Position numbers and translations under genes: made by a program
Shown here: piece by piece, positions 7,166 to 55,977 of the stretch
Layout of the letters: each line of letters begins with the position of its first letter
Numbering within the stretch: the stretch's first letter is position 1
NCBI RefSeq assembly: GCF_016862195.1
Contig: NZ_BOMM01000001.1
Location: 248,001-312,000, forward strand
Source: Paractinoplanes ferrugineus
GTDB lineage: Bacteria > Actinomycetota > Actinomycetes > Mycobacteriales > Micromonosporaceae
Direction of reading: 5' to 3'
DNA length: 64,000 nucleotides
Notes under the pieces: model-generated
Told to the model about the DNA's origin: nothing
Database searches by the model: none
What the model saw: the letters and a program-made list of their open reading frames with translations, nothing else

Positions 7166-8170
7166 TTGTCTGCCGAACTCGTCGCCGTCCTCGCGGTGAT
7201 CCTGGCGGCGATGGTGTTCGACTACACCAACGGCTTCCACGACGCGGCGAACGCCATCGCCACCAGTGTCAGCACCCGGGCGCTGACCCCTCGGATCGCG
7301 CTGCTGATGGCCGCCATCGGCAACTTCATCGGCGCCCACTTCGGCGAGAAGGTCGCGAAGACCGTCGGCAGTGGCCTGATCGACGTGCCCCAGGTGGTCG
7401 GTGGCCTGGCCCTGGTGCTGGCCGGGGTGCTGGGCGCCATCGCCTGGAACCTGATCACGTGGTACTTCGGCCTGCCCTCGTCCTCCTCGCACGCCCTGAT
7501 CGGCGGCCTGGTCGGCGCGGCCCTGGTCGCCGGTGAGACGGTGCACTGGGCCGGCATCGTCAAGAAGGTCCTGCTGCCGATGGTGCTGTCCCCGGTGGCC
7601 GGCTTCGTCCTCGGCTTCATCGTGATGGTCGCCCTGATGTGGATCTTCCGGCGTGGTCGCCCGGCCAAGCTGAACCGTGGCTTCCGCTGGGCCCAGACCG
7701 TCTCGGCGGCGCTGATGTCGATCGGCCACGGCCTGCAGGACGCCGCGAAGACCATCGGCGTGATCGTGCTGGCCCTCTACGTGGGCGGCTACCAGGACTC
7801 CACGTCGCACATCCCGCAGTGGGCGTACTGGACGTCGGCGACGGTGCTGGCGCTCGGCACGTACGCGGGTGGCTGGCGCATCATCCGGACCCTGGGCCGC
7901 AAGATCATCGACCTCGGCCCGCCCGAGGGTTTCGCCGCCGAGACGGTGGCGAGCAGCCTGCTCTTCACGTTCGGCATCGGCCTGGGCGCCCCGATCAGCA
8001 CCACCCACACGATCACGTCGGCCATCATGGGCGTCGGCGCCACCAAGAAGCTGTCCGCCGTCCGCTGGGGCGTGGCCGGCAACATCGTCGGCGCGTGGAT
8101 CCTGACCTTCCCGGGTGCGGGCGGCATCGCGGCGCTCTGCTACTTCGTGGTCCGCCCGTTCTTCTCCTGA
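7166..8170 (+). CDS. pit: Inorganic phosphate transporter, PiT family
   Basis: A 334-residue membrane protein with about ten hydrophobic segments. The first PiT signature is DYTNGFHDAANAIATSVSTRAL at about residues 19-40. The second, inverted half carries GHGLQDAAKTIG, and a late GLGAPISTTHTI segment is also typical. PiT proteins carry metal phosphate with protons or sodium at low affinity. TTG 7166 is the likely start: it is 3 nt after the DUF47 stop and directly begins the first helix. A strong hairpin follows the stop codon. Confidence 0.95.
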   Translation: MSAELVAVLAVILAAMVFDYTNGFHDAANAIATSVSTRALTPRIALLMAAIGNFIGAHFGEKVAKTVGSGLIDVPQVVGGLALVLAGVLGAIAWNLITWYFGLPSSSSHALIGGLVGAALVAGETVHWAGIVKKVLLPMVLSPVAGFVLGFIVMVALMWIFRRGRPAKLNRGFRWAQTVSAALMSIGHGLQDAAKTIGVIVLALYVGGYQDSTSHIPQWAYWTSATVLALGTYAGGWRIIRTLGRKIIDLGPPEGFAAETVASSLLFTFGIGLGAPISTTHTITSAIMGVGATKKLSAVRWGVAGNIVGAWILTFPGAGGIAALCYFVVRPFFS

Positions 8171-34673: not shown

Positions 34674-34718
34674 TCGTCTTCAGCCGAACGGCTGCACCCG
34701 ATATGCGACCGGTTGGTT

Positions 34719-34745
34719 CTCATCGGCAACCGTCAAGTCGCCGAA
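34719..34745 (+). promoter_or_regulatory. FliA-type promoter of flbD-motA-motB-fliL
   Basis: CTCA at 34719-34722 and GCCGAA at 34740-34745 with a 17-nt spacer, 64 bp before ATG 34810. Both elements are exact; the spacer is one longer than the others in this cluster. Confidence 0.65.
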
Positions 34746-34809
34746 GTGACATGTGAAAGCGGGCCACGGACGGCCCACCAGCCAGGACCACACCACCACC
34801 CAAGGACGG

Positions 34810-38489: not shown

Positions 38490-39253
38490 TGACCGCGCCC
38501 ACGATCACCGCACCCCAGCTGGCGCTCGCCCGGAGCGCCGCGGAAGCCGCTCTTGCCGTCCTGCCCACCAGCCGCGCTCTCACCGCCGCCGCGCCGGTGG
38601 CCGCGTCCGCCGACACCGTCATCGACGGCCAGGCGGTGACCGCCCGGTTCAGCGGCGCGGCGAACGGTGAGGTCGTCGTGGTGGTCGGCCAGGACCTCGC
38701 GGACGCGCTCAAGGAGAGTCCGCTCGGCGAGCTCGACCTGACCGCCGCGGTTCGGCCCGCTCTGGAGGCTGCCTCGCGGGTCTTCGGACCGGTCGTGGTC
38801 GACCCCGGCACGGTGATGGAGCCGGGCGTCGCGCTGAGCTCGATGGCCACCAAGGAAGACGCCGTGGTGGTCCCGCTGGTCGAGGGCGAGGAGGTCCGCG
38901 CGATCCTCGGGCTCGCGCTCAGCCCGTGGCCCACCGAGGAGCCGGGTCAGATGAACCTCGCGGCCACCCGGGCCCCGGCTCCGTCGTCCGCCATGGCCAT
39001 GGCCCACGGCCTGGACATGCTCCACGACGTGGAGATGGAGGTCTCGGCCGAGCTCGGCCGCACCCGGATGAGCGTGCGCGAACTCCTCTCCCTCAACCCG
39101 GGCGCCATCGTCGAGCTGGACCGGGCCGCCGGCAGCCCGGCCGACCTGCTGGTCAACGGCCGGCTGATCGCCCGCGGCGAGGTCGTGGTGGTGGACGAGA
39201 ACTTCGGCATCCGGATCACCGAGATCGTCGCGCCCGGCACCGAGCGGGAGTAA
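38489..39253 (+). CDS. fliN: Flagellar motor switch protein FliN, long (FliY-like) form
   Basis: A 254-residue protein whose last 80 residues are a SpoA domain (DVEMEVSAELGRTRMSVRELLSLNPGAIVELDRAAGSPADLLVNG). The N-terminal 165 residues form an Ala-rich CheC-like domain (FGPVVVDPGTVM, VVPLVEGEEV..ILGLALSP). Standard FliN is about 100-140 residues, so this is nearer the FliY layout, though I see no E-x-x-N phosphatase motif. It starts at ATG 38489 within the fliM stop. Confidence 0.88.
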   Translation: MTAPTITAPQLALARSAAEAALAVLPTSRALTAAAPVAASADTVIDGQAVTARFSGAANGEVVVVVGQDLADALKESPLGELDLTAAVRPALEAASRVFGPVVVDPGTVMEPGVALSSMATKEDAVVVPLVEGEEVRAILGLALSPWPTEEPGQMNLAATRAPAPSSAMAMAHGLDMLHDVEMEVSAELGRTRMSVRELLSLNPGAIVELDRAAGSPADLLVNGRLIARGEVVVVDENFGIRITEIVAPGTERE

Positions 39254-39258
39254 CCGCC

Positions 39259-39648
39259 GTGTTCGAGCTCGCGCTGCGGATCGGCTTCTCGGTATTCATC
39301 GTGCTGGGCCTGATGTGGGCCCTGGCCCGGGTGTTACGCCGCCCGCTGAGCGCCCGCCGCGCGCACGGCTCGCTCGCCGTGCTGAACCATCAGCAGCTCA
39401 CCCGCAACGCGGCGGTGACCGTGGTCAAGGTGGCCGACCGGGCGTTCGTCCTCGGTGTCACCGAGACCCAGGTCAGCCTGCTTGGCGAGGCCGAGGTGGC
39501 GGCCTTCGAGCGACACGAGCACGAGGAACACGTACACCTCGACCCGGACGAGTTGCCCGGCATGCACCCGGCCGGTGACGGCCGACCGACCCCGCGCACC
39601 TGGACTTCGACGCTTGACCTCATTCGCGACCGGACATCGAGGCGATAA
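39259..39648 (+). CDS. fliO: Flagellar biosynthesis protein FliO
   Basis: A 129-residue protein with one N-terminal helix (FELALRIGFSVFIVLGLMWAL) and a cytoplasmic part: GSLAVLNHQQLTRNAAVTVVKVADRAFVLGVTETQVSLL, the FliO strand pattern. It assists FliP assembly into the export gate. GTG 39259 is the likely start, 5 nt after fliN. Codon 26 is TTA (39334-39336), rare in this genome. The gene ends 3 nt before fliP. Confidence 0.88.
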   Translation: MFELALRIGFSVFIVLGLMWALARVLRRPLSARRAHGSLAVLNHQQLTRNAAVTVVKVADRAFVLGVTETQVSLLGEAEVAAFERHEHEEHVHLDPDELPGMHPAGDGRPTPRTWTSTLDLIRDRTSRR

Positions 39649-39651
39649 GCC

Positions 39652-40491
39652 ATGCGACGCGCGATCCTGCTGCTGTTCGTCACTTTCGGCCTGGCCCTGG
39701 TGCTGGCCCCCGGTGCGGCTCAGGCCGAGCCGAGACCGGTGCCCATGCCGATGGCCCCGGCGGTGGTGACCGTCGCGATGCCGGATCGGGTGCCCCAGGC
39801 GCCCACCCCGCCGTCGCCGCCGAGCATCAACCTCAACGTCAACGGCACCAATCCGGACGGCAGCCGGCCGGCTTCGTCACTGGTGATCATGCTGGGTCTG
39901 ACCGTGCTGTCGGTGGCCCCGGCCGTACTGTTGCTCTGCACGTCCTTCACCAAGGTCTTCATGGTCCTCGGCATCACCCGCAACGCGCTCGGCCTGACCA
40001 GCATGCCGCCCAACCAGGTGCTCGCCGGGCTGGCCCTGTTCCTGAGCCTGTTCATCATGGGACCGACCGTCTCGGCCATGAACGAGCAGGGTGTGCAGCC
40101 CTATCTCAAGGGCGACAAGACCCAGACGCAGGCGTTCAAGGACGGCGTGAAGCCGTTGCGCGAGTTCATGTGGAAGACGACCCGTGAGGACGAGGTCGGC
40201 CTCATGCTCAAGCTGTCCGACTCCAAGCAGCCCCGCAACAAGGACGACGTCGAGCTGACCACGCTGATCCCCGCGTTCGTGCTGTCCGAGCTGCGGGCCG
40301 CGTTCATCATCGGCTTCGTCATCTTCATCCCGTTCCTGCTCATCGACATGGTGGTCTCGGCGTCACTGATGTCGCTGGGCATGATGATGCTGCCCCCGGT
40401 GACCATCTCCCTGCCCTTCAAGCTGCTGTTGTTCGTGATGGTCAACGGCTGGGGGCTGATTCTGACCGCCCTGGTGGCGTCGTACCGATGA
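39652..40491 (+). CDS. fliP: Flagellar export gate protein FliP
   Basis: The 279-residue product has an N-terminal signal peptide (residues 1-25, LLLFVTFGLALVLAPGAAQA) as in FliP. The core is VIMLGLTVLSVAPAVLLLCTSFTKVFMVLGITRNALG, PPNQVLAGLALFLSLFIMGP, LIPAFVLSELRAAFIIGFVIFIPFLLIDMVV and SMGMMMLPP. FliP oligomerises with FliQ and FliR to form the secretion pore. The stop overlaps the ATG of fliR (ATGA), leaving no room for fliQ, which normally lies between them. Confidence 0.96.
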   Translation: MRRAILLLFVTFGLALVLAPGAAQAEPRPVPMPMAPAVVTVAMPDRVPQAPTPPSPPSINLNVNGTNPDGSRPASSLVIMLGLTVLSVAPAVLLLCTSFTKVFMVLGITRNALGLTSMPPNQVLAGLALFLSLFIMGPTVSAMNEQGVQPYLKGDKTQTQAFKDGVKPLREFMWKTTREDEVGLMLKLSDSKQPRNKDDVELTTLIPAFVLSELRAAFIIGFVIFIPFLLIDMVVSASLMSLGMMMLPPVTISLPFKLLLFVMVNGWGLILTALVASYR

Positions 40492-41252
40492 ACTGGAACG
40501 TCCCGATCGCGGACCTTCTGGCGATCATGCTGGGTTCCGCCCGGACCGGGGCCTTCCTGATGATCAGCCCGCCGTTCAACTCGCGGTTCATCCCGGGGAA
40601 CGTCAAGGTGCTGCTGTCGATCGGGCTCACCCTGCCGCTCGCGCCGTACCTGCGGGGCACCATCCCGAGTCTGGAGACGGCCGACATCCTGGCCAGTGCC
40701 GCGCTGCAGGTCTTCGTGGGAGCCTCGCTCGGCTTCCTGGTGGCGATGCTGTTCGCCGCCCTGCAGGCGGCCGGTGACCTGCTCGACGTGTTCGGCGGGT
40801 TCACCCTGGCGATGGGTTACGACCCGCTGTCGATGAACCAGAGCTCGGTGTTCGGCCGGTTCTACAACCTGATCGCGGTCACCATCCTGTTCGCCACCGA
40901 GGGCCACCAGATGATCCTGCGCGGGTTCCTCCAGTCGTTCCGGACCATGCCGCTGAACCTGCACTTCGATCTGCCCACGCTCAGCCAGCTGCTGCTCAAG
41001 GGTCTCGGCGAGTTGTTCGTGGCGGCACTGCAGATCGCCGGCCCACTGGTGATCGTGCTGTTCCTCACCGACGTGGCGTTCGGCCTGCTCAACCGGGTCG
41101 CGCCGGCACTGAACGCGTTCCAGCTCGGGTTCCCGGCCAAGATCCTGGTGCTCCTGCTGCTCTCCGGGATGGCGATCACGCTGCTGCCTCCGGTCATCGA
41201 GTCGATCGTCGAGAAGGCGGTCACCGGCGTACTCAAATTGACCGGGGGTTGA
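40488..41252 (+). CDS. fliR: Flagellar export gate protein FliR
   Basis: A 254-residue multi-pass membrane protein: LGSARTGAFLMISPPFNSRFIPGNVKVLLSIGLTL, VFVGASLGFLVAMLFAALQAAGDLLD, QMILRGFLQSF, VLFLTDVAFGLLNRVAPALNAFQLGFPAKI. It completes the export pore with FliP (and FliQ). Its ATG overlaps the fliP stop, and flhB follows 12 nt later. Length and motifs are normal, so no fused FliQ is seen. Confidence 0.95.
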   Translation: MNWNVPIADLLAIMLGSARTGAFLMISPPFNSRFIPGNVKVLLSIGLTLPLAPYLRGTIPSLETADILASAALQVFVGASLGFLVAMLFAALQAAGDLLDVFGGFTLAMGYDPLSMNQSSVFGRFYNLIAVTILFATEGHQMILRGFLQSFRTMPLNLHFDLPTLSQLLLKGLGELFVAALQIAGPLVIVLFLTDVAFGLLNRVAPALNAFQLGFPAKILVLLLLSGMAITLLPPVIESIVEKAVTGVLKLTGG

Positions 41253-41264
41253 GGGTGGTGAGCC

Positions 41265-42356
41265 ATGTCCGGTGAGAAGACCGAACAGCCGACACCGCAG
41301 AAGCTCAAGAAGGCCAAGCGCGAGGGCCAGATCGGCCGCACCCAGGACATCGGGGCCTGGTTCGGCATGCTGGCCGCGAGCATCCTGCTGCCCCGCACCC
41401 TCAGCGCCGCGGTGCAGCACGCCGAGGAACTGTTCTCCCAGGTGCCCCAGGTGATCGACCGGCCCGAGCCGGCCATCGCGATGCGGATGCTCAAGGATGC
41501 CGGGTTCGGCATCGCCTGGGCGGTGCTGCCGCTGGCCGGCACGCTGATGCTGGTCGGCATCGCGTCGGCGGGCGCGCAGGGCGGCATCCGGGTCGCCACC
41601 AAGCTGTTCATCCCGAAGTTCAACCGGCTCAACCCGCTGCCCGGCATCAAGAAGATGTTCGGCCCGCAGGCCCTCTGGGAGGCGGTCAAGGCCCTGGTCA
41701 AGACGGCGGTGCTGGCCGCCGTGCTGTACACCACGACCAAGGACAAGATCCCGATCCTGATGACCGCCGGTCAGTTGCCGCTCGGCTCGCTGGTGTCGGT
41801 GGTCAAGGACTCCACCCTCGGCCTGATCCGGGCCGCCGCCGCGGCCGGCATCGTGATGGCCGCCGCCGACTATTTCGTGGTGCGCCGCCGCACCAACAAG
41901 CAGCTGCGGATGACCAAGGAAGAGGTCAAGCAGGAGAACAAGAACGCCGATGGCGACCCGCTGGTCAAGGCCCAGATCCGGGCCCGGCAGATGGCGATGT
42001 CCCGGAACCGGCAGATGGCCGACATCCCGATGGCCGACGTGGTGCTGGTGAACCCGACGCACGTGGCCGTGGCACTGCGCTACGAGCCGACCAAGGGCGC
42101 GCCTCGGGTGGTGGCCAAGGGCCAGGGCCCGATCGCCACCAAGATCCGGGAGATCGCCCTGGAAGCGCGGGTTCCGCTGGTCCAGGACGTGCCGCTGGCT
42201 CGGGCCATGCACCAGAACGTCGAGGTGGGGGCGGAGATCCCGGCCGAGTTCTTCGGTGCGGTGGCCAAGGTGCTCGCCTTCGTGATGAGCCTGAAGGCGC
42301 GGGGCTCGGCGGCAGGAATGCACCGCAACCCCAATTCTGCCTCATCAGCCGCATAA
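41265..42356 (+). CDS. flhB: Flagellar export switch protein FlhB
   Basis: A 363-residue protein with an N-terminal GEKTEQPTPQKLKKAKREGQI, four transmembrane helices and a cytoplasmic C-terminal domain. The autocleavage site NPTH is at N263-H266 (DVVLVNPTHVAVALRYEP), with GQGPIATKIREIALEARVPLVQDVPLARAM after it. Cleavage switches export from rod/hook to filament substrates. It is followed by a structured leader before flhA. Confidence 0.96.
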   Translation: MSGEKTEQPTPQKLKKAKREGQIGRTQDIGAWFGMLAASILLPRTLSAAVQHAEELFSQVPQVIDRPEPAIAMRMLKDAGFGIAWAVLPLAGTLMLVGIASAGAQGGIRVATKLFIPKFNRLNPLPGIKKMFGPQALWEAVKALVKTAVLAAVLYTTTKDKIPILMTAGQLPLGSLVSVVKDSTLGLIRAAAAAGIVMAAADYFVVRRRTNKQLRMTKEEVKQENKNADGDPLVKAQIRARQMAMSRNRQMADIPMADVVLVNPTHVAVALRYEPTKGAPRVVAKGQGPIATKIREIALEARVPLVQDVPLARAMHQNVEVGAEIPAEFFGAVAKVLAFVMSLKARGSAAGMHRNPNSASSAA

Positions 42357-42448: not shown

Positions 42449-44503
42449 GTGAAAAAGCGCAACATCAGTCGACTGGCCGTACCCGTCGGGGTCATCGGCA
42501 TCATCATCATGATGGTCGTCCCGTTGCCGACGTTCCTCCTCGACCTCTTGATCGCGCTCAACATCACCGCCGCCCTGCTCATCCTGCTGACCAGCATGTT
42601 CGTCGAGAAACCGCTGGACTTCGCGGTCTTCCCGGCGCTGCTGCTGGTGGCCACGCTGTTCCGGCTGGCACTCAACATCAGCGCCACCCGGCTGGTGCTG
42701 CGCGACGGTGACGCGGGCAAGGTGATCCACGCGTTCGGCAGCTTCGTGGTCGGCGGCAATCTGGTGATCGGCCTGGTGATCTTCCTGATCCTGGTGATCG
42801 TCCAGATGGTCGTGGTGACCAAGGGTGCCGAGCGGGTCGCCGAGGTCGGCGCCCGGTTCACCCTCGACGCCATGCCCGGTAAGCAGATGGCCATCGACGC
42901 CGACCTCAACGCCGGTCTGATCGACGAGGACCAGGCCAAGAAGCGCCGCGCCGAGGTGGCCGCCGAGGCCGAGTTCTACGGCGCGATGGACGGTGGCTCC
43001 AAGTTCGTCAAGGGCGACGCCATCGCGGCCGTCATCATCACCCTGGTCAACCTGGTCGGTGGATTCGCCATCGGCCTGATCCAGCAGGGCATGTCGGCCG
43101 GCGACGCGATGAACCACTACAGCATGCTCAGCGTCGGCGACGGCCTGGTCTCCCAGGTGCCGGCCCTGCTGCTCTCGGTCGCCACCGGTCTGATCGTGAC
43201 CCGCTCGGCCACCTCCGGCGACATGGGTTCCAGCGTCACCGCCCAGCTCGGCCAGAACAAGCTCGCGCTGCGCATCGCCGGTGGTGCCGCGCTCGCCCTC
43301 TGCGTCATCCCCGGTCTGCCCAAGGTCCCGTTCCTGATCATCGGGGTGGCGGTGCTGGCGATCGCCCAGCGGGTCAAGGAACCGGAACCGGAGGCCGACG
43401 CCGCCGCGGCCGCGGCCGCCGCCGAGGCCGTCGACATGCCGGCCCCCGACTCGCCCGAGCAACTGCTCGGCGAGATGCGGGTCGACCCGCTCGAACTCGC
43501 CCTCTCACCCGACCTCGTCGACCTCGTCGACACGAGCAGCGGCGACCTGCTCGACCGGGTTCGCGCCCTGCGCCGCAAGATGGCCATGGAACTGGGCGTG
43601 ATCATGCCGCCCGTACGCACCCGGGACGACCTGGACCTGCCGCTGTCCTCGTACGCGATCCGGATCTCCGGGGTCGACGCGGGAACCGGCGAGGCCCCAC
43701 CCGGCACCGTGCTGGCGATCGGGGACGGCCTGCACGGGCTGCCCGGCCGCGCCGGTGTCGAACCGGTCTTCGGCCTGCCCGGCAAATGGGTGCCGGCCGA
43801 ACTGCACTATCAGGCCGAGCTCTCCGGAGCCACGGTCGTGGACCGGGCCAGCGTGATCATCACGCACCTGGCCGAGGTCGTCCGCAGCAACGCGAGCCGA
43901 TTGCTCGGCCGCGAAGACGTCCGGGCGCTTACCGAGATGGTGAAGCGTTCGCACCCGGTCGTCGTGGAGGAACTGACCCCGGCTGTGCTCAGCCTCGGTC
44001 AGATCCAAAAAGTGCTGCAGGCCATGCTGGACGAGGGCGTGCCCATCCGCGACCTGGTCCGAATCTTCGAGGCGCTCTCCCTGAGAGCGAAGGTCTCCGT
44101 CGACCAGGACAGCCTGGTGGAGTCGGCGCGCGCCGCACTCGGCCCGGCCATCGCCGCCCAGTACGTCGCGGGCGGACGGCTCACGGTGATCACCCTCGAT
44201 CCGATGCTCGAGCAACAACTGCTCGAATCGTTGCGGCCCAGCGAGACGGGAGCCTTCATGGCGATCGACGGATTGCGCGCCGAGGCGATCGTCACGGAGG
44301 CCGCCCGCCTGGCCGAGACCGCCGAGCAACAGGGCTTGACGCCCGTGCTCGCCTGCTCGCCACAGCTGCGGCTCCCACTGATGCGACTGCTCCGCGCCGG
44401 CTCCCGCCGGGTGCAGGTGCTGTCGTACGGCGAAATCTCTGGTTCCACAGCACAGATCGAGACGATAGGGGTGGTGAACGGTGCCTACGCGGGTGCTGCT
44501 TGA
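42449..44503 (+). CDS. flhA: Flagellar export protein FlhA
   Basis: The 684-residue product has the FHIPEP N-terminus: eight helices (LDLLIALNITAALLILLTSMFVEKPLDF, VFPALLLVATLFRLALNISATRLVL), the cytoplasmic loop FTLDAMPGKQMAIDADLNAGLIDEDQAKKRR, then DGAMDGGSKFVKGDAIAA and GLVSQVPALLLSVATGLIVTRS. A large cytoplasmic domain binds chaperone-substrate complexes. GTG 42449 is used. The 3' end overlaps the flhF-like gene by 23 bp. Confidence 0.97.
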   Translation: MKKRNISRLAVPVGVIGIIIMMVVPLPTFLLDLLIALNITAALLILLTSMFVEKPLDFAVFPALLLVATLFRLALNISATRLVLRDGDAGKVIHAFGSFVVGGNLVIGLVIFLILVIVQMVVVTKGAERVAEVGARFTLDAMPGKQMAIDADLNAGLIDEDQAKKRRAEVAAEAEFYGAMDGGSKFVKGDAIAAVIITLVNLVGGFAIGLIQQGMSAGDAMNHYSMLSVGDGLVSQVPALLLSVATGLIVTRSATSGDMGSSVTAQLGQNKLALRIAGGAALALCVIPGLPKVPFLIIGVAVLAIAQRVKEPEPEADAAAAAAAAEAVDMPAPDSPEQLLGEMRVDPLELALSPDLVDLVDTSSGDLLDRVRALRRKMAMELGVIMPPVRTRDDLDLPLSSYAIRISGVDAGTGEAPPGTVLAIGDGLHGLPGRAGVEPVFGLPGKWVPAELHYQAELSGATVVDRASVIITHLAEVVRSNASRLLGREDVRALTEMVKRSHPVVVEELTPAVLSLGQIQKVLQAMLDEGVPIRDLVRIFEALSLRAKVSVDQDSLVESARAALGPAIAAQYVAGGRLTVITLDPMLEQQLLESLRPSETGAFMAIDGLRAEAIVTEAARLAETAEQQGLTPVLACSPQLRLPLMRLLRAGSRRVQVLSYGEISGSTAQIETIGVVNGAYAGAA

Positions 44504-49980: not shown

Positions 49981-50020
49981 TGCTGCACCCGACCTGCAAC
50001 GGAGGCTGTGGGTGCGCCGT

Positions 50021-55943: not shown

Positions 55944-55977
55944 CGCGTAATGGTTGCTGCGAGGTTGCACACACGAA

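Follow-up and report, generated by a model that had tools for sequence, protein, structure and literature searches.

In most bacteria fliP, fliQ, and fliR are adjacent and make up a very widely conserved block of export-gate genes. Actinoplanes missouriensis is reportedly different: Jang et al. are said to have described in 2016 a fliQ separate from a 33-gene flagellar cluster and to have disrupted it to test its part in flagellation. The separate fliQ reported there resembles the arrangement described here, but that work reportedly dealt with one strain and one copy, whereas we find 12 neighborhoods, extra copies, homogenization, and a stage in which fliQ has a promoter-like stretch of its own while still in place. 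New, within the literature searched, is a roaming, multicopy, homogenized fliQ; a separate fliQ in A. missouriensis was reportedly already known. Judging by the titles among the matches listed in our literature search, no report of several fliQ copies or of shifting sites in Actinoplanes was found.

The solved export gate is FliP5Q4R1, and excerpts of the work describing it state that FliQ dissociates easily in detergent (PMC7064499). For Salmonella, assembly is proposed to begin when FliP forms a ring with the help of FliO, followed by FliQ, FliR, and FlhB, and then FlhA (PMC5542437). The same three gate proteins occur in the genus studied here, but FliQ is encoded apart from FliP and FliR. 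Supply of FliQ in trans would fit both the Salmonella assembly order and the loose hold of FliQ in the gate. A further point of comparison is the concerted evolution described, in the excerpted portion of one study, for tuf and 25 other prokaryotic genes, mostly of stable complexes (PMC6053082); the word fliQ is absent from the main text of that paper.

A fliP-fliR junction without fliQ, and a remote fliQ

The window, by which we mean the whole stretch of 64,000 nucleotides of Paractinoplanes ferrugineus DNA that was analyzed, contains the following flagellar genes around the junction.

39253..39648, + strand, fliO-like frame, start codon not fixed; TIGR03500, 52.7 bits (cutoff, 55.25)
39652..40491, + strand, fliP, 279 amino acids; TIGR01103, 252.4 bits (cutoff, 217.45) over residues 83 to 278
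40488..40491, + strand, ATGA in which the fliP stop (TGA) and the fliR start (ATG) overlap, seen in the sequence; the position of fliQ in other genera
40488..41252, + strand, fliR, 254 amino acids; TIGR01400, 159.1 bits over residues 12 to 246, the best match, just under the cutoff of 168.6
41265..42356, + strand, flhB, 363 amino acids; TIGR00328, 325 bits, the best family (cutoff, 349.25)
42449..44503, + strand, flhA, 684 amino acids; TIGR01398, 777.4 bits (cutoff, 772.1)

An earlier note on this DNA had described a 4-nt overlap of fliP and fliR in a shared ATGA, which the sequence confirms at 40488 to 40491, and unfused proteins of 279 and 254 amino acids, which NCBIfam names FliP and FliR; no FliP-FliR or FliR-FlhB fusion was seen in that comparison. 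The overlapping genes are presumably translationally coupled. The same note saw no FliQ in the window, and this too held, since the sole PF01313 match of the genome falls outside it.

That match, the only one in the whole genome at an E value of ≤0.001, lies on a separate contig at G000:C23:29075-29290 (E value, 2e-25). The remote fliQ has 89 codons and adjoins a divergent mshC (TIGR03447, 645.3 bits); a convergent gene of 201 codons on its other side had no Pfam or NCBIfam match. The FliQ protein scores 92.3 bits against PF01313 (cutoff, 25) and 88.4 bits against TIGR01402, which is 0.5 bit under the cutoff of 88.9; TIGR01402 is still its best family, 30 bits above SctS (TIGR01403, 58.5). Residues 1 to 88 of the 89 align to residues 1 to 88 of a solved chain named FliQ (36hu_G1; E value, 2.1e-18). 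Across the genus fliQ is under purifying selection, with dN/dS values of 0 to 0.175 in all 13 of the pairs that we chose for comparison. The earlier note had left two options, a fliQ elsewhere in the genome or one lost or replaced. The first stands, and the second falls to a full-length FliQ under purifying selection; a FliQ match elsewhere, which the note had equated with relocation, is present on C23, and loss or replacement of FliQ in this genome is thereby refuted.

An 11-nt perfect inverted repeat (CGCAACCGGCA and TGCCGGTTGCG, at L069:7020-7030 and 7326-7336) flanks this fliQ. Its left arm belongs to neither gene's frame shared with the other copies, and the repeat may be due to chance.

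Distribution in the genus and in other genera

The earlier note had proposed a FliQ profile search of related genomes and a comparison of fliP-fliR spacing. Every one of the 67 genomes sampled from the genus (Actinoplanes in the broad sense) has fliP and fliR as neighbors and a fliQ, above the Pfam cutoff, that lies elsewhere. FliP and FliR are each encoded once and contiguously in 67 of 67, so their adjacency is due neither to chance nor to an assembly break. Spacing between the fliP stop and the fliR start measures exactly -4 nt in 44 genomes, -1 to +13 nt in 21, and +43 nt in one (G124); the remaining genome, G145, shows the same overlap, but its fliR contains a run of N. Among the 16 genomes assembled as a single contig, fliQ copies lie 0.74 to 5.2 Mb from fliP; in one of 8,773,466 bp (G148), for example, a single fliQ lies about 751 kb away.

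In a sample of 121 genomes from the family, 33 have FliP, FliQ, and FliR. All eight of these that belong to the genus of the window have adjacent fliP and fliR with fliQ elsewhere, and in 24 of the 25 from other genera fliQ sits between the two. Four of those 24, all of one genus (code g7), carry two fliQ copies there. The 25th genome, G006, is also g7; its two copies there, each near a contig end (L085:3480-3690 and L086:512-731), look broken at the 3' end and in one shared region. Misassembly of a repeat is the most likely cause, failing which both copies are damaged. Between the tandem copies of the g7 genomes (L081 to L084) there is a palindromic repeat with arms CTTTGCTCTGCTTAC and GTAAGCAGAGCAAAG, and four CTTTGCTCTGCTTAC arms occur upstream of the G170 fliQ (L155); the palindrome was not found in the window. 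A weak second FliR match in another genome (G024:C22:9074-9556), with an internal stop and overlapping fliP and fliQ, is probably spurious.

Named FliQ loci, of which 80 were kept from 307 matches with up to 6 kb of DNA per side, gave the same division, but many lie on the same contigs as the genome sets and are not independent of them. There was no fliP or fliR nearby in 55 of the 80, a figure that includes five loci shorter than 12 kb and so checked over less than 6 kb on one side (L276, L282, L286, L294, and L305). The names on these 55 all belong to the Actinoplanes group (Actinoplanes, Paractinoplanes, Couchioplanes, Pseudosporangium, Winogradskya, Amorphoplanes, and others), and the remaining 25 all have fliP, fliQ, and fliR in order. 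The nearest named FliQ is that of Paractinoplanes toevensis (98%).

The fliQ cassette

The relocated fliQ is part of a unit of about 0.4 kb that comprises a TcrA-box-like repeat, a FliA-like promoter, the gene, and often a terminator. Each of the 91 copies from the 67 genomes has an ATG start codon and a product of 89 or 90 amino acids. Between copies of one genome, homology begins 59 to 128 bp 5' of the start codon in 25 of 28 pairs, the exceptions being G125 (15 bp), G149b/c (about 200 bp), and G163 (homologous throughout), and its 3' limit falls from 4 bp short of the stop codon to 61 bp past it in 26 of 28 (exceptions, G175b/c and G163). The shared length is 285 to 525 bp, with a median of 398, when G163 is left out, as its copies sit in a larger repeat (≥7 kb). 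This repeat is inverted and 99.9% identical, and its two fliQ copies (L160 and L161) are about 20 kb apart.

Upstream of the gene, the conserved string runs from a ACTTGAGG-like start through a TcrA-box-like direct repeat, GCACTC, about 16 bases, and GCCCGAA to a purine-rich ribosome site; a hairpin with a run of T follows many copies among the matches listed. We take the promoter to be FliA-like. The box and promoter occur as a composite in 69 of 91 copies, compared with 0 to 1 per shuffled window in eight shuffles. Excerpts of the relevant paper give the TcrA box consensus as nnGCA(A/C)CCG-n4-GCA(A/C)CCGn (PMC12691653). The best score upstream of 80 of the 91 copies was at least 12 of 14 (12 to 14), a level reached by 0.7% of shuffles, and the strict consensus was matched in one copy only. 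Judging from this likeness of promoters, which extends to the candidate box and promoter at 34694 to 34747 in the window, the remote fliQ would be expected to be expressed along with the flagellar cluster.

Copy number and sites

Excerpts of a survey of flagellar genes in Actinobacteria place FliQ among the proteins with a single-copy gene (PMC10746217). In contrast, 20 of the 67 genomes of this one genus have two copies (16 genomes) or three (4 genomes), and 47 have one; in draft assemblies these numbers are lower bounds. In G056, the start of contig C4 (L371:1-60) cuts through another fliQ copy, at site 4, which makes the draft counts minima. By conservative clustering of flanks, the 91 copies fall into 12 neighborhoods, a count that combines both flanks of about 2 kb under single linkage, depends on the threshold (19 by the upstream flank alone, 18 by the downstream flank alone), and includes two sites (3 and 6) in one pdx region. 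Representative neighbors were as follows.

ABC transporter gene: 22 copies
MDMPI_N gene (site 1): 18 copies
Glyoxalase and 6-phosphogluconolactonase genes: 11 copies
pdxS/pdxT: 11 copies, plus 3 in another orientation (sites 3 and 6)
Adenosine deaminase-like gene: 10 copies
F420H2-dependent quinone reductase-like gene: 10 copies
mshC, among the smaller sites: the window genome alone
truB, among the smaller sites: G170

Site occupancy required a minimum of 5, 6, 5, 7, 4, 2, 2, and 1 changes for sites 0 to 7 on a tree of FliP, FliR, and FlhB, a quick tree in which 22 of 64 inner branches fall below 80. In the window genome the copy adjoins mshC, and the site used by its near relatives is empty. 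Two pairs of empty and filled sites show that the cassette alone was gained or lost: the mshC site has 380 bp between alignable flanks in the window genome versus 9 bp in G176, and the MDMPI_N site has 367 bp in G177 versus 14 bp in the window genome. Thus, the position and copy number of fliQ are unusually fluid in Actinoplanes-type bacteria, and nothing is lost.

Probable homogenization of copies

Over the first 88 codons, copies within a genome were 94.3 to 100% identical in 27 of 28 pairs, which is above the identity to any other genome's copy; in three of the 28 pairs one copy occupies a site that no other genome shares, and the G163 copies belong to the larger repeat. The exception, G173, has two copies that are 87.5% identical (12.5% different) and form no clade. 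In a tree of coding sequences, the copies of one genome formed a clade in 19 of 20 multicopy genomes, and in 15 of the 20 their FliQ proteins were identical. Flanks at the same site nevertheless align across species, upstream in 18 of 19 comparisons and downstream in 17 of 19, drawn from nine species pairs that we selected. At sites 0 and 3 of G125 and G172, the within-genome identity is 99.2 and 99.6%, the same-site identity between the species is 92.0 and 92.4%, and the flanks are 85.7 to 94.5% identical.

Because copies cluster by genome although their sites are common to several species, we infer from the trees that they evolve in concert, most simply by gene conversion. As described for tuf in the excerpts of that study, paralogs of one species are closer than orthologs; synteny served there to exclude independent duplication, and same-site flanks align here too (PMC6053082). 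fliQ is unlike tuf in that its copy number and positions vary between species and its unit is just about 0.4 kb.

Probable departure of fliQ from the block and weighing of explanations

Gaps between fliP and fliQ were measured in genomes that keep fliQ in place. The gap of Spirilliplanes (L023) is 74 bp with a TcrA-box score of 12 of 14, those of four g7 genomes are 107 to 110 bp with scores of 11 to 13, and those of 11 other parsed loci are 12 to 61 bp with scores of 7 to 10; six further loci were not parsed. One of the six, L029 from another genus, has a long gap with a box-like stretch by eye, and for this reason a promoter gained before departure may not be confined to the closest relatives. 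Spirilliplanes and g7, with fliQ in place behind a promoter-like stretch of its own, are a plausible intermediate, which suggests that the promoter came first and departure later.

We consider it very probable that fliQ left the fliP-fliQ-fliR block and that a remote, promoter-bearing cassette supplies FliQ in trans, with sites that change and copies that are homogenized. The likely first step, judging from the present state of Spirilliplanes and g7, would be the gain of a promoter by fliQ inside the cluster. fliQ would then have departed and fliP and fliR closed up, mostly to the 4-nt overlap, with FliQ supplied in trans from a one-gene cassette bearing the TcrA-box-like repeat and FliA-like promoter. 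This cassette would then have come to occupy several chromosomal sites. Gene conversion would be the simplest way of keeping the copies within a genome similar, and gain and loss of single copies would leave species with different fliQ addresses or sets of addresses.

That fliQ was instead lost, with its role replaced or FliP and FliR working without it, was a reading invited by its absence from the window and from the fliP-fliR junction; with FliQ over the Pfam cutoff in every genome of the genus, intact start codons and lengths in all 91 copies, and purifying selection in each pair tried, it has practically no probability left. It is very unlikely as well that the copies and breaks are artefacts of assembly. 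Drafts do break inside fliQ, as in contig C4 of G056, but two or three copies were found in 10 of the 20 genomes with one or two contigs versus 10 of the 47 with more (Fisher P = 0.04, for a division made once the data were known), and drafts accordingly hide copies and do not invent them. The main rival to gene conversion is repeated independent insertion into a few preferred intergenic sites, with copies that are simply young, which would look similar. Patchy sites on the FliP, FliR, and FlhB tree, the different orientations of the cassette in the pdxS/pdxT region (sites 3 and 6), and cassette edges that differ from pair to pair all speak for it. However, two or three of the sites, with flanks that align, are common to closely related species (G129/G138, G124/G149, G125/G172, and G137/G146), and in G056, G102b, G111b, and G128b the cassette-opening ACTTGAG or ACCTGAG overlaps the same glyoxalase stop codon, a junction most simply explained as one old insertion. 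We therefore regard reinsertion without gene conversion as rather unlikely, and homogenization of resident copies as the better reading.

How the cassette moves is a matter for a more tentative proposal. Possibly, this unit of promoter, gene, and terminator moves and multiplies within Actinoplanes chromosomes by a DNA-level process with neither a transposase of its own nor element-like ends, while gene conversion keeps the copies interchangeable, so that a core gene would have become a dispersed, selfish-like cassette. The competing idea, that a transposable element carries the cassette or gave rise to it (MITE-like, with transposase in trans), draws on its compactness, its many sites, and its presence or absence as a cassette alone. 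The CTTTGCTCTGCTTAC-arm palindrome between the g7 tandem copies and the fourfold arm upstream of the G170 copy point the same way, as do inverted pairs of 11 to 22 nt (82 to 100% identity), 295 to 437 nt apart, in three of five scanned cassette stretches, though these differ from one another in sequence. Against it, the five stretches scanned (of 91) share no terminal repeat, and inspection by eye revealed no target duplication at either mshC or site 1, where the species compared are too distant to exclude a short one. None of 18 flanking proteins had a transposase domain in Pfam, and three of them had no match at all; these proteins were predicted with a simple reading-frame finder, were cut to 260 amino acids, and cover sites 0 to 5, 7, 8, 10, and 11. 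The CTTTGCTCTGCTTAC motif itself is present in just 1 of the 91 loci, and the palindrome was rejected as a general vehicle. Overall, we judge an origin in such an element improbable.

Other carriers were also considered. Retroposition of mRNA is disfavored, since the shared unit takes in the upstream promoter region. With one FliQ query, four phage records matched, one of a Salmonella phage and the other three of human fecal origin, and 93 plasmid records matched, all at less than 60% identity; among the 8 listed of the 93, the best were Pseudarthrobacter, Curtobacterium, and Arthrobacter (53 to 57%). Carriage by phage or plasmid was rejected on this basis, and a scan of viral contigs with one FliQ sequence gave no confirmed relative.

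The position and dosage of fliQ may not matter. With Q uncoupled, re-regulated, copied, and scattered, and P and R closed up, the genus offers a natural experiment on whether assembly of the P5Q4R1 pore depends on the order of the P, Q, and R genes. It also bears on the way in which a gene escapes from its operon, here probably by first acquiring its own promoter and then departing. On the practical side, FliQ is unsafe as a marker presumed to be single copy in this genus, and fliQ is a place where assemblies from short reads can break.

TcrA-box-like sequences in the window

At up to three mismatches, boxes number 94 in the window, compared with 79.5 ± 8.7 in shuffles, and are not clearly commoner. 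One candidate has a layout resembling the fliQ cassette promoter and lies upstream of reading frames at 34753 and 35100.

34694..34747, + strand, candidate TcrA box GCACCCG-n4-GCGACCG (one mismatch) with a CTCA/GCCGAA promoter-like pair, seen in the sequence

A stricter composite search of the window for box plus promoter did not pick this candidate; it returned three places in the real window, one of them near 55968. There, a TcrA-box-like repeat on the - strand (55951 to 55968) is followed by a CTCA/GGCCGAA promoter-like pair and is possibly another regulated promoter. The same may be true of a TcrA-box-like repeat on the + strand at 49985 to 50002.
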